The position numbers and the translations under genes are program-made. The notes beneath the pieces are model-generated. The model saw nothing but the letters and a program-made list of their open reading frames with translations. It was not told where the DNA came from and ran no database searches. This document shows, piece after piece, positions 11,590 to 38,274 of a DNA stretch of 46,307 bases (position 1 is its first letter; every line of letters starts with the position of its first letter). This stretch comes from Salinisphaera sp. (GTDB lineage: Bacteria > Pseudomonadota > Gammaproteobacteria > Nevskiales > Salinisphaeraceae): contig NZ_PBYA01000010.1 in NCBI RefSeq assembly GCF_002729955.1, positions 1 to 46,307 of the forward strand. The letters are read 5' to 3'.

Positions 11590-12111
11590 TTACATATCCG
11601 AATCGCGCTGCTGGTTGAGCTCGTCCGGGCTGGACGGATCACGCTGGCCCATGCCTTTGTCGCCGTCAGCGCTGTTGCCGTCGCCCATGGTGTTGCCGCC
11701 GGACATCGTGTCCTGATTCAGCGAGCCATCGTTCGACATCGAGCCCTGGCCCTGCATGCCGTTGTCGTTCGACATCGCGCCTTCGTTGGAGCGATCGGCA
11801 TCGTAGTCCTGGCTATCGCGCTGGCCCTCGGCGCTGCCGTAGCTGTCGTCGCGTGCGTGGCTCTGGCTGCTCATGCTGTCGTCGCCGGACATGTCGTGGT
11901 CGCTGCTCATGCCGCCATCGTTCGACATGCTGCTACCGCCGGCCATGTCGCTATCGCTGCCCATGCTGCTTTCGCTGGACATGGTGCTGCTGGTGTTGCC
12001 CGAGGCGCTTCCGGCCGAGTCGGCAGCAAAGGCCGCCGGCGCGAGCGTGACCGCGCCGGCAACGACGAGTGCGGTCAGAACGGAGGGGGTAAACTTGGAA
12101 ATGGAATGCAT
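11590..12111 (-). CDS. Secreted Ser/Met/Asp-rich low-complexity protein
   Basis: A 173-residue protein of no recognised family. Residues 1-29 are a clear Sec signal peptide (hydrophobic core TALVVAGAVTLAPAAFA, cleavage after AFA). The mature part is almost entirely Ser, Met, Asp, Gly, Asn and Gln, with loose repeats such as SSMSNDGGMSSDHDMSGDDSM, and is strongly acidic and presumably disordered. It has no Cys. An excellent AGGAG ribosome site lies 7 bp before the ATG and a strong terminator follows, so it is a real, singly transcribed gene. Met/Asp/His-rich periplasmic proteins can bind copper or silver, but only one or two His are present here, so that is speculative; an envelope or osmotic role is equally possible. 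Confidence 0.8.
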   Translation of the reverse strand: MHSISKFTPSVLTALVVAGAVTLAPAAFAADSAGSASGNTSSTMSSESSMGSDSDMAGGSSMSNDGGMSSDHDMSGDDSMSSQSHARDDSYGSAEGQRDSQDYDADRSNEGAMSNDNGMQGQGSMSNDGSLNQDTMSGGNTMGDGNSADGDKGMGQRDPSSPDELNQQRDSDM

Positions 12112-35231: not shown

Positions 35232-36182
35232 CTAGTTCAGCCGCAGCTCGATCGCGTCGAACAGCTTCGCGGCGATATTGATGCCGAACTGCTTGTCCAG
35301 CTCACGCACGCAGGTGGGGCTGGTGACGTTGATTTCGGTGAGCTTGTCGCCGATCACGTCCAGGCCCACGAACAGCAGGCCCTTTTCGCGCACATAGGGG
35401 CCGATCTCCTCGGCGATCGCCCGGTCGGCATCGGTAAGCGGACGGCCCACGCCGCGCCCGCCGGCGGCGAGGTTGCCGCGCAGTTCGCCTTCGGCCGGCA
35501 CGCGTGCCAGCGCGTAATCCACCGGCACGCCGTCGACCACCAGAATACGTTTGTCGCCTTCCTTGATCGCCGGCAGGTAGGCCTGGGCCATCGCATAGCG
35601 ACTGCCGTGTTCGGTGAGTACTTCCAGCACCACCGAAATATTGTCGTCGCCGGTCTTGACCCGAAAGATCCGCGAGCCACCCATGCCGTCGAGCGGTTTG
35701 ATCACGGCATCGCCGTGTTCGGCGATAAAGCGCTTGAAGTCGGCGCTGCGGCGCGCCACCAGCGTGGGCGCGGTCAGATGGGCAAAGCGGTTGATCGACA
35801 TCTTCTCGTTGACGTCGCGCAGCGCATCGCAGCGATTGACCACCAGCGTGCCTTCGTTTTCGGCCAGCTCGAGAATATAGGTGGCATAGATGTATTCGGT
35901 ATCGAACGGCGGATCCTTGCGCATGAGGATGGTATCGAGATCGGCCAGGGCCAGAATCTCCGACTCGCCGGTAAAGCGATACCAGTCGTCGTTGTCGTCG
36001 AACACTTCCAGGCGGCGTCCCGTGCCGTAGCCCACGCCGTCGCGCACGAACAGATCGGACATCTCGAAATAGATGATTTCGTACTCGCGGCGCATGGCTT
36101 CGAGCAGCAATGCCAGGGTGGTGTCCTTGTAAGGGGTGATATCCGCGATGGGGTCCATCACGACGCCGAGACGGGTGGCCAT
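35232..36182 (-). CDS. gshB: Glutathione synthase
   Basis: A 316-residue ATP-grasp enzyme that joins gamma-glutamylcysteine and glycine to make glutathione. Motifs: RLGVVMDPIADITPYKDTTLALLLEA at the start, ILMRKDPPFDTEYIYATYILE, VIKPLDGMGGSRIFRV and the metal-binding end VGLDVIGDKLTEINVTSPT. Length is standard. It is the first gene of the leftward operon running to pyrB; tonB follows after only 3 bp. The upstream side (36183-36330) holds its promoter and an inverted repeat CAGGCAT-GCC-ATGCCTG at 36252-36268. Confidence 0.96.
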   Translation of the reverse strand: MATRLGVVMDPIADITPYKDTTLALLLEAMRREYEIIYFEMSDLFVRDGVGYGTGRRLEVFDDNDDWYRFTGESEILALADLDTILMRKDPPFDTEYIYATYILELAENEGTLVVNRCDALRDVNEKMSINRFAHLTAPTLVARRSADFKRFIAEHGDAVIKPLDGMGGSRIFRVKTGDDNISVVLEVLTEHGSRYAMAQAYLPAIKEGDKRILVVDGVPVDYALARVPAEGELRGNLAAGGRGVGRPLTDADRAIAEEIGPYVREKGLLFVGLDVIGDKLTEINVTSPTCVRELDKQFGINIAAKLFDAIELRLN

Positions 36183-36334
36183 GCCGCAGCTCCTGATACC
36201 GGACGCGCATCAGCGCGCCCAGCGATTGTCGAATAAGCGCGCATGGTAGCGCAGGCATGCCATGCCTGGCTTTCGTCCACGCAACCTGACGTCGCCGCGT
36301 TTTCTGCGAACACATGCCCGCGGGTGGGCGGGAC

Positions 36335-37621
36335 GGCTTCGTTCCTTGAAGGCAACCACAGATTGCGCAGATTTAAGGGATTAAGAAAACGGCACTCTCT
36401 ACCCTTACGTCTGCCCCAAGCCTCGTGCATGCGGACGTAGTACGAAGCGACCTCTCATGGAATCTGCGTTGATCTGCGAAATCCGCGGTTCCTGTCTTGT
36501 CTTAGAGGACGACTCGGGCCGCGAATGAACGCGAACGGGGCATGCAGTGTGAACGTGGGGCTTCGCGTTGGCTGGCTTCGTTCCTTGAAGGCAACCACAG
36601 ATTGCGCAGATTTAGGGGATTGAAGAATGGGGCGCTTCCCGGCCTCGCACGTGCCCCAAGCCTCGTGCATGCCGACGTAGTGCGACGCGGCCTTTCACAC
36701 AATCTGCGTCGATCTGCGAAATCTGCGGTTCCTGTCCTGTCTTGGAAGACGACTCGGACCGCGAATGCACGCGAATAAACGCGTATGAGGCATGCATTGT
36801 GAACGTGGGGCTTCGAGTGGACTGGCTTCGTTCCTTGAAGGCAACCGCAGATTACGCAGATTTTGGGGATTAAGAATGGGGCGTTTTCGGCGCTCGTGCT
36901 TGCCTCAAGCATCGTGCGTGCAGATAGAGCGCGAAGCGGCCTGTCAGACAATCTGCGTCGATCTGCGAAATCTGCGGTTCCTGTCCTGTTTTGGAAGACG
37001 ACTCGGACCGCGAATGCACGCGAATAAACGCGTATGAGGCATGCATTGAGAACGTGCGGCTTTCGCGTTAGCTGGCTTCGTTCCTTGAAGGCAACCACAG
37101 ATTGCGCAGATTTAGGGGATTAAGAAGAGGGCACTTTCTACTCTTACGCCTGCCTCAAGCATCATGCATGCCGACGTAGCGCGAAGCGGCCTGTCACACA
37201 ATCTGCGTCGATCTGCGAAATCTGTGGTTCCTGCCTTGTCTTAGAGGACGACTCGGACCGCGAATGAACGAGAATAAACGCGAACGGGGCATGCAGTGTG
37301 AACGTGGGGCTTCGCGTTGGCTGGCCTCGTTCCTTGAAGGCAACCACAGATTGCACAGATTTAAGGGATTAAAAAGGGGGGCGTTTTCGGCCCTTTCACT
37401 TGCCTCAAGCTTCGTGCATGCGGACGTAGTGCGAACAGGCCTGTCACACAATCTGTGTCGATCTGCGAAATCTGTGGTTCCTGCCTTGTCTTAGAGGACG
37501 ACTCGGACCGCGAATGCACGAGAATAAACGCGAACGGGGCATGCATGCCGACGTAGCGCGAAGTGGTCTGTCAGGCAATCTGTGTTGATCTGCGAAATCT
37601 GTGGTTCCTGTCTTTCGTTCA
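36335..37621. repeat. Tandem array of about 250-bp hairpin-forming units, non-coding
   Basis: Five full units and a shortened sixth. The shared GTTCCTTGAAGGCAACC starts at 36341 (in phase), 36580, 36830, 37080 and 37329, i.e. periods of 239, 250, 250 and 249 bp. Each unit carries a left arm AACCACAGATTGCGCAGATT (with variants) and, about 100 bp later, a right arm GATCTGCGAAATCTGCGGTT, nearly complementary. Right-arm AATCTG motifs fall at 36461, 36701, 36950, 37200, 37450 and 37577. The last unit lacks its left half, joined at a GCATGC-like sequence. Short open frames on both strands repeat with the units and are not genes. No protein, RNA gene or transposase is seen. Confidence 0.9.
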
Positions 37622-37628
37622 AAGACAG
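37608..37628. terminator. Hairpin closing the repeat array
   Basis: CTGTCTTT and AAAGACAG form a perfect 8-bp stem with loop CGTTC exactly where the last array unit ends. It could stop transcription leaving the NERD-like gene leftward or mark the array boundary. No clear T-run follows. Confidence 0.45.
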
Positions 37629-37725
37629 CACACCACTCGAAGCGCGCCTTGGCGGACAGTTACACCAGCAGCCAGTCCGGCGGATCCGAATTGGCGTTTC
37701 AGCCGCTCTACATCGGGCCGTGCGC

Positions 37726-38274
37726 TCAGGCAGCAGTCTTGAGTTGAGCCGGGGCTTGCCCGGACAGCTGGGTGACGATCTGCTGCAGGCGTCGTGCAGA
37801 GAATACTTCGACCCGATAACTGCGGATATATTCGGCAAGCTCGGGCCCGTGCACCATATTGGCTGGGCGCTCTGCGGGCAGGTTGCTGACGGTGACCAGC
37901 ACCGGGCTGACGAAGCTGCGGTTTTCCTCGAGCAATTCCGCCACGTCCCGGGCCTGCTGTTCGCAACGGTCGACGGGGTTGTCGTCGTTCGCGGCATCCG
38001 CCATGGGTCGCGGGGCCCAGTCGGTGGAACCCAGGTCGTGGGCGATGCCGGCATCCAGCGGTTCGATGATGAAAAGCCCGCGGGTGCTGACCACCACCAG
38101 CCCGAGATGGATGAGCGCCGCCGGGGTCTGGACGGCCAGATTGCGCAGCACGATATAGCGACGCGAGCGCAGCATCCACCACCATGCGAGCACGGCGCGC
38201 CAACGCGACAGACGCACAACCATCGACGCATAATCGCGACGAACCACAAATCCGAGAGAAATCAGCGCTTTCAC
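37726..38274 (-). CDS. NERD-like domain protein, catalytic residues apparently lost
   Basis: A 182-residue protein. After an Arg/Trp-rich start (about 1-35), residues 40-155 fit a NERD (nuclease-related) domain: RRYIVLRNLAVQTPAALIHLGLVVVSTRGLFIIEPLDAGIAHD, then NPVDRCEQQARDVAELLEENRSFVSPVLVTVSNLPAE. In NERD proteins the strand reads roughly iDhvvvs..GvfvIEvK; here the usual Asp is Leu and the E-x-K pair is Glu-Pro-Leu, so nuclease activity is doubtful. Function unknown. It stands alone between the tandem array and an MFS gene; the 14-bp palindrome GCGCTTGCAAGCGC at 38343-38356 lies in its upstream region. Confidence 0.55.
   Translation of the reverse strand: MKALISLGFVVRRDYASMVVRLSRWRAVLAWWWMLRSRRYIVLRNLAVQTPAALIHLGLVVVSTRGLFIIEPLDAGIAHDLGSTDWAPRPMADAANDDNPVDRCEQQARDVAELLEENRSFVSPVLVTVSNLPAERPANMVHGPELAEYIRSYRVEVFSARRLQQIVTQLSGQAPAQLKTAA

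Follow-up and report, generated by a model that had tools for sequence, protein, structure and literature searches.

A tandem array of hairpins lies between gshB and a weakly NERD-like gene in the window, by which we mean the whole 46,307-nucleotide stretch analysed of Salinisphaera sp. contig NZ_PBYA01000010.1, and the arms of this array belong to the same family of repeats that frames genes for PDDEXK_3 proteins ('GxxExxY protein', PD-(D/E)XK nuclease family). The array (36335-37612) consists of five hairpin units and a half unit with a period of about 250 bp. The main point falls outside the coordinates of the first-pass annotation that had described the array: arms of the array's kind bracket PDDEXK_3 nuclease genes. 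On balance, the array is probably a local tandem expansion of gene-less copies of an undescribed, REP/RAYT-like nuclease element, with the nuclease as the putative mover. Below, G-numbers denote genomes (G000 being the window's genome), L-numbers loci and C-numbers contigs.

The number and period of the units were as initially described, including the unit starts. Tandem Repeats Finder called 36335-37546 with a period of 250, 4.9 copies and 85% matches, and the unit start GTTCCTTGAAGG was read at 36341, 36580, 36830, 37080 and 37329, in steps of 239, 250, 250 and 249. All units are given on the forward strand. Unit 1 (36335..36573, 239 bp) combines an A-type hairpin with a short B-type arm and is followed by unit 2 (36574..36823, 250 bp), unit 3 (36824..37073, 250 bp), unit 4 (37074..37322, 249 bp) and unit 5 (37323..37541), whose 3' end is cut short where the half unit starts. 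The half unit (37542 to about 37612) contains a right arm only and starts, by reading, at a GCATGC common to spacer and loop, a pattern suggestive of a deletion at a short stretch present in both. Pairwise identity among the five units is 81-91%, and they are therefore distinct copies.

The arms are composed of CRCAGAT heptamers stacked 9-10 bp apart and inverted around a loop. The left arm reads AACCRCAGATT.CRCAGATT in all five units (in unit 3, AACCGCAGATTACGCAGAT at 36843..36861, forward strand). The right arm of each presents three ATCYGYG-type words 10 and 9 bp apart, matching the spacing of about 10 bp initially noticed for ATCTGCG; in unit 3 all three words are ATCTGCG (36950..36979, forward strand), and the remaining right arms lie on the same strand at 36461-36490, 36701-36730, 37200-37229, 37450-37479 and 37577-37606. 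The first-pass annotation had attributed complementary arms about 100 bp apart to every unit. This is true of units 3, 4 and 5, whose 19-nt arms, separated by 99-100 nt, are 89-95% complementary, whereas units 1 and 2 have more arm mismatches and are absent from the list of inverted pairs. The unit spacers present a second phased motif on one strand, CGCGAATGCACGCGAATAAACGCG-like and referred to as B type, with matches starting at 36522, 36762, 37011, 37261 and 37511; an example is the ACCGCGAATGCACGCGAATAAACGCG-like arm in the spacer of unit 2 (36758..36786, forward strand), and similar spacer arms were found elsewhere.

RNA folding of the five arm-to-arm stretches, a check proposed with the original description, yielded z-scores of -1.64, -3.24, -4.79, -3.73 and -2.76 for units 1 to 5, with unit 3 as the best-folding hairpin. 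Units 2 to 5 fold better than at least 198 of 200 shuffles, and unit 1 beats only 188. The idea of a structural non-coding RNA is not supported as far as known structural RNAs are concerned, since Rfam returned no match at gathering score in the window and none with E up to 1 in 36300-37660. The loops of units 1, 3 and 5 had no match at E 0.01 among the fetched loci, where the spacer alone matched, via its B-type arm. The unit loops also bear no likeness to the nuclease gene, a result that we count against the nuclease as mover. Regarding the neighbours, the identification of gshB is firm (glutathione synthetase, 35232..36182, reverse strand, Pfam GSH-S_ATP E 1.6e-71, the downstream neighbour in the reading direction), and that of the other gene (37726..38274, reverse strand) holds only weakly, its Pfam NERD match (E 0.0047, 17.9 bits) being below the cut-off of 22.1. 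Elsewhere in the window, positions 11673-11988 contain short tandem repeats whose lengths, 18 and 54 bp, are divisible by three and which are probably coding.

The history of the locus can be followed within the genus. The gshB gene is present in 14 of 14 genomes, and a CAGAT pair was found near it only in G000, G006 and G007 (14 gshB loci, 1.5 kb on each side where the contig allows). One diverged unit is found at the same place and between the same two flanking genes in G006, and the same two genes are present with zero units, by reading, in G004. These states in the two relatives, a lone diverged unit and no unit at all, indicate that the units multiplied locally. Moreover, the units of the window are more similar to one another than to the G006 unit (71-74% identity), indicating that they multiplied after the split from G006. 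Of the possibilities raised at the outset, an expanding repeat is thus the one upheld, in the sense of a repeat that has expanded: 5.5 units here, 1 in G006 and 0 in G004.

Similar palindromes had been expected to be dispersed in many unrelated genomes, and a scan for the full-hairpin pattern confirmed this with at least 120 matching stretches and about ten bacterial phyla among the matches listed. By record title, these comprise Pseudomonadota, Planctomycetota, Verrucomicrobiota, Acidobacteriota, Bacteroidota, Nitrospirota, Nitrospinota, Bacillota, Spirochaetota and Desulfobacterota, together with a Victivallales bacterium, and some of these records are metagenome bins whose names may be wrong. 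Tandem units with the motif were found in 6 of the 120 named hairpin loci listed and in one further locus of the window's own genome, and two loci of G013 have arrays, so that a regular array is indeed uncommon, as was first suspected, yet not unique. The own-genome locus (L028 1641-2606, on C39) is a 426-bp tandem array with the CAGAT motif near a contig end, and its composite includes a B-type arm; L032 and L035 present similar composites. The G013 loci (L039 1907-2432 and L040 2280-2787) show, as tandem arrays, a duplication of the B-type arm at 251 bp that is present on either side of an inverted arrangement, and a five-copy array of 100 bp. A hairpin is found between the same two genes in two Acidobacteriota bins (L137 1611-1729 and L154 3879-3993); several neighbouring genes are common to both, which suggests that this copy may be old and kept. 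In five proteobacterial loci (L091, L093, L127, L146 and L152) the palindrome seems, by eye, to extend outwards with GGTTCATCC-like sequence on both sides, and several Salinisphaera copies were read to have a common outer GGCTTCGTTC-like end.

The distribution of the triple motif CAGAT(3-6)CAGAT(3-6)CAGAT is patchy: it occurs 64 times in the window's genome (reversed control: 0) and 101 times in G013, and is absent from G003, G011 and G012 of the same genus. The reversed motif gave a single match across the 61 genomes combined. In a 398-genome sample of the phylum, 126 genomes had a match and eight had seven or more; many of the single matches look like chance.

When 560 ORFs taken from 80 of the listed 120 hairpin loci were compared all against all, the largest cluster covered 8 of the 80 loci, and it was a two-locus cluster, corresponding to PDDEXK_3, that provided the lead to the nuclease. 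A PDDEXK_3 gene is present in 3 of the 120 listed named hairpin loci, each time with arms beside it. Pfam PDDEXK_3 yielded 29 matches in 21 of the 61 relatives, and in nearly all cases phased repeats stand directly before and after the gene. The arms around these 29 genes are of several kinds: CAGAT (A), CGAAT or CAAAT (B), CGCAAAG and CGCAGAG (C), and CAGGAT (D). The coding element thus framed, inverted arms around a PDDEXK_3 gene, is about 450 bp long. Matching inverted arms with a score of at least 14 were detected for 50 of 57 PDDEXK_3 genes of Pseudomonadota: 25 of 27 (out of the 29) from the relatives and 25 of the 30 loci listed from a phylum search with matches in 64 genomes. The window genome's own element at the metH junction (L232 and L239, at contig ends) is not among the 57. 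These arm pairs are mostly built of CRCRRAD heptamers 8-10 bp apart, and at least two such heptamers were found in 47 of the 50 left arms against 39 of 10,000 shuffled arms.

Several controls were used to gauge these scores. Random places in the same loci never reached a score of 14 (0 of 458; 19 reached at least 11), the 458 being those kept from 1000 draws after places overlapping the gene were skipped. Flanking inverted arms at this score were found for 1 of 30 Y1_Tnp genes. When the upstream flank of one gene was paired with the downstream flank of another, a score of 14 was reached in 111 of 1000 pairs, because arm types are common to different genes. All four PDDEXK_3 genes on IMG/VR contigs have such arms; among plasmid-record genes 2 of 8 reach the arm score, and by eye the phased repeats at L330, L333 and L335 are direct, not inverted. 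Viral or plasmid-borne spread was considered and rejected, as PDDEXK_3 is rare there (4 IMG/VR loci; 8 of 72,556 plasmid records). In one Desulfobacteraceae locus (L205 4348-4533), three tandem copies of the right arm with a ribosome-binding-like GGAGG and an ATG precede the PDDEXK_3 gene, and the arm encodes the first residues of its protein.

The PDDEXK_3 protein is predicted to have a PD-(D/E)XK nuclease fold. LExxY, one D and ExK are invariant in 9 of 9 aligned nuclease sequences, and the structure prediction, with a mean pLDDT of 91.5, is closest to the Cas4 protein SSO0001 (E 3e-5); the structure alignment did not include L317. The next structural matches, a restriction-like protein, lambda exonuclease and others, were all above E 0.001. 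A sequence search for a solved homologue returned one match at E 0.17, which we treated as none.

The type of arm follows the phylogeny of the nuclease. The tree was built from 65 nuclease domains over 117 columns; it leaves 26 of its 62 inner branches unresolved and includes three proteins without an arm label. For 61 of the 62 labelled genes, the final heptamer letter is as predicted from the tree: heptamers end in T or A on one side of the tree (26 of 26) and in G on the other (35 of 36), the exception being L117. Two changes of heptamer end are needed on this tree versus about 20 in shuffles. Near-copies and shared descent inflate such tests; nonetheless, the match is found in 7 of 7 and 23 of 23 genes when the comparison is limited to 30 genes within one host family, which holds the host family constant.

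The nuclease is also associated with the dispersed motif at the genome level. Of the 14 genomes rich in the A motif, 12 possess an A-armed nuclease, as against 1 of the remaining 47. Here 'motif-rich' means seven or more triple motifs, a threshold chosen after the counts were seen; arm types in the 13 A-armed genomes were assigned by eye, with G004 and G006 counted despite one decayed arm. Any PDDEXK_3 gene is present in 12 of 14 motif-rich versus 9 of 47 motif-poor genomes (P 1e-5), and an A-armed nuclease within the genus in 7 of 8 versus 1 of 6. P values overstate this evidence because the genes and genomes are related. The phylum sample shows the same trend (PDDEXK_3 in 7 of 8 motif-rich and 57 of 390 other genomes), partly because one host family is rich in both. 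We count two observations against the nuclease as mover: G002 and G033 are motif-rich without a PDDEXK_3 match, and nine motif-poor genomes possess one, eight of them with other arm types. At finer scale, dispersed motifs resemble the arms of the resident nuclease. In G018, 33 of 50 motifs are 23 bp long, as is its own nuclease arm, and in G020 19 of the 24 listed motifs (29 in total) are 25 bp long, as are its own arms; both counts include the arms themselves. The window's genome possesses an element at the metH junction, with its ends on two contigs (L232, L239), that frames a PDDEXK_3 gene with the arm type of the array, and the right arm of unit 5, the unit compared, matches the arm of this element at 27 of 30 bases with the same 24-bp spacing. 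Nucleases with CGCAAAG arms lack dispersed copies, the corresponding triple motif occurring once each in 2 of 61 genomes, and this is a result against the simple model. Stand-alone elements with these arms were seen in G054, G049, G050, G045, G023 and others among the 61 relatives.

The coding elements occupy narrow gaps between operon genes, for instance carA|carB, the two halves of metH, and sufB|sufC. Among 14 species, the carA|carB gap is empty in eight (93-111 bp) and filled in five, including the window's genome, with a nuclease and arms (448-456 bp); in G002 a PF05635 gene takes the place of the nuclease element. The gap is empty in G006, a genome in which the start of CarB is 99% identical to that of G000. 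In filled junctions the whole spacer is replaced, and since loss would have to restore the spacer, we read the filled state as a gain. No target-site duplication could be read at carA|carB. The carA and carB genes of G000 are closest to those of G006 in most 60-bp windows (87-98%; 74% next to the carA stop), and this comparison showed no co-conversion tract around the element. Compared with its counterparts in the four other filled species, the nuclease gene of G000 at this junction shows 68-75% identity, which indicates that none of the four is a recent donor.

The junction of the split metH was encountered empty, filled and decayed. Measured from where the first gene stops to the conserved NFIN.GERTNV motif in the second, empty junctions span 131-133 bp (G008, G011, G012) or 15 bp (G024, G030), and filled ones 458-500 bp in seven species and 726 bp in G020. 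Only arm remnants are left in G003 (207 bp) and a 55-residue gene remnant in G001 (435 bp); the junction has other contents in G002 (662 bp) and G023 (1120 bp), metH is fused in G034 and G037, and 11 of 30 loci gave no reading. Across L284-L313, several families of this order have metH as two genes, whereas others have it fused; the split falls at the metH domain border, where PDDEXK_3 elements are also located.

A second protein family presents comparable frames. PF05635, the four-helix protein of 23S rRNA intervening sequences, was detected at 11 loci in 9 of 61 genomes (L318-L328), and 6 of the 11 genes have flanking inverted repeats with a score of at least 14, which shows that an inverted-repeat frame does not need a PDDEXK_3 nuclease. 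The make-up of these repeats differs (GTGAGGC-, GGGACTC- and GTAGATA-like, and one longer palindrome). These genes are often framed in operon junctions, and two of them, L324 and L320 (the latter without a strong score), lie at carA|carB, a junction also used by PDDEXK_3 elements. The PF05635 frames weaken an account of mobility by the nuclease alone and strengthen the likeness to intervening sequences.

From the apparent co-evolution of nuclease and arms and their type-specific association, we infer that the nuclease is best read as the mover. The main rival, which we regard as unlikely though a serious contender, is that the nuclease is a passenger: the palindromic frame itself would be the element, carrying various small genes (PDDEXK_3, four-helix PF05635) and spread by an unlinked agent such as a reverse transcriptase or recombination between conserved flanks. 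The occurrence of two unrelated families in such frames, both at carA|carB (L211, L215, L217, L220 and L223 versus L320 and L324), is in line with a passenger, as is the replacement of the spacer there. The parallel with intervening sequences points the same way, these being described in PMC4990558 as RNase III-cut stems with a loop ORF, at conserved sites, that replace a tetraloop. However, heptamer type matches nuclease clade in different hosts and at different sites, and the PDDEXK_3 and PF05635 families have different motifs. A host function is far less probable: the array could be a binding array, a regulator or a structural RNA of the gshB region, as its position upstream of gshB between co-directional genes and the clear folding of four of the five hairpins would allow, but it is absent from the same place in G004 and single in G006, a CAGAT pair lies near gshB in only 3 of 14 genomes, and Rfam gave no match.

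Two readings would assign the hairpins to familiar enzymes. It is improbable, if less so than a host function, that they are MITEs moved by an ordinary DDE transposase; they are short, dispersed and inverted at their ends, and the outer end common to several Salinisphaera copies would fit, but PDDEXK_3 was the only gene family to stand out next to the hairpins, where the largest ORF cluster reached 8 of the 80 loci, and no duplication of the target site could be read. That they are REP-like sequences moved by a RAYT (Y1) transposase seems very improbable. Y1_Tnp matches are indeed common (45 of 61 relatives, with six in the window's genome), yet they occur in 11 of 14 motif-rich and 34 of 47 motif-poor genomes, that is, with no association, and G027, G033 and G044 have the motif without a Y1_Tnp match. 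Moreover, the CAGAT motif was found within 1.5 kb of 0 of 30 Y1_Tnp loci, five of which have a B-like match somewhere. RAYT as the mobiliser is thus not supported. Least probable of all is an assembly artefact: this is a draft genome of 58 contigs, some of which end near such repeats, but the units differ by 9-19% from one another and both unique flanks are on the same contig.

The nuclease element resembles several described systems. As in REP/RAYT systems (REPIN, BIME), short dispersed palindromes share their sequence with the inverted flanks of a single small gene for a DNA-acting enzyme, and in those systems enzyme and palindrome are reported to evolve together (PMC2817692). In contrast, the enzyme here is a PD-(D/E)XK nuclease rather than a Y1 HUH transposase, the ends are phased heptamers without a GTAG-type head, and coding copies lie in operon junctions. 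By reading, the unit ends GGCTTCGTTCCTTGAAGGC-AACC and GGTTCCTGTC contain neither GTAG nor GTGG, and no Y1 (RAYT) gene flanked by the palindrome was found, a strong flanking inverted repeat of any kind being present at 1 of 30 Y1_Tnp loci. The element thus appears to work like REP/RAYT with another enzyme and other ends, yet lacks the marks of RAYT membership. By our own definition of a PDDEXK_3-framed element, the array has the expected inverted CRCAGAT arms, 9-10 bp apart, and the same genome possesses a nuclease with the same arm type, in the metH element split over two contigs.

The likeness to 23S rRNA intervening sequences consists of a small ORF in the loop of a long stem, conserved sites and the replacement of a short native stretch (PMC4990558). 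The elements described here differ in lying in protein-coding operons instead of rRNA and in encoding a nuclease instead of an S23 / four-helix protein (PF05635); the array itself is located between two protein genes, and no PF05635 match was found in the array or in the window's genome. MITEs are likewise short, non-coding and dispersed with inverted ends; no target-site duplication could be read for the present elements at carA|carB, and a DDE transposase behind the array is hypothetical. Of six terms looked up in a 2024 review of prokaryotic MITEs (PMC10969869), none was present, 'tandem' and 'nuclease' included. Finally, free-standing homing endonuclease genes are also small nuclease genes that occupy one conserved site in a number of species and are missing from close relatives of these; they differ from the present elements, which have long palindromic arms, a replaced spacer and gene-less dispersed relatives, and for which the cutting of empty sites is hypothetical. 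A link between PDDEXK_3 and these palindromes was not found in the open-access literature searched, in which the 'GxxExxY protein' is named in two papers, in passages silent on function.

If the nuclease is the mover, these elements could spread as follows. A coding family member would be an element of about 450 bp in which inverted CRCRRAD-type heptamer arms (here CRCAGAT) surround a PDDEXK_3 gene. The nuclease would recognise its own arms or a target and cut DNA, and repair would copy the element in and thereby spread it; it would also move gene-less hairpins, and recombination or slippage between units might then build an array. In transcripts, base pairing between the arms may form a stem and so protect the operon, much as 23S rRNA intervening sequences do. 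Our genome comparisons did not capture any movement of elements. More broadly, and with less confidence than for the array itself, we tentatively propose a cross-phylum class of elements that have PDDEXK_3 / GxxExxY proteins as their mobility enzymes and phased-heptamer palindromes as ends (CAGAT, CGAAT, CAAAG, CAGAG, CGAAG and CGGAT), which would settle in operon junctions without breaking genes and seed gene-less hairpins and arrays; the PF05635 elements would constitute a parallel class with its own ends.

The array as a tandem expansion has parallels in other tandem loci. The link between PDDEXK_3 and the palindromes gives these repeats a coding parent and the 'GxxExxY protein' a likely role. 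The nuclease and its site constitute a directly testable pair, the protein clade predicting the heptamer. If the nuclease moves DNA, these sequences would represent a class of mobile elements that settles in operon gaps and leaves host genes intact, and the system would bear on the origin of 23S rRNA intervening sequences, which is called unclear in PMC4990558.
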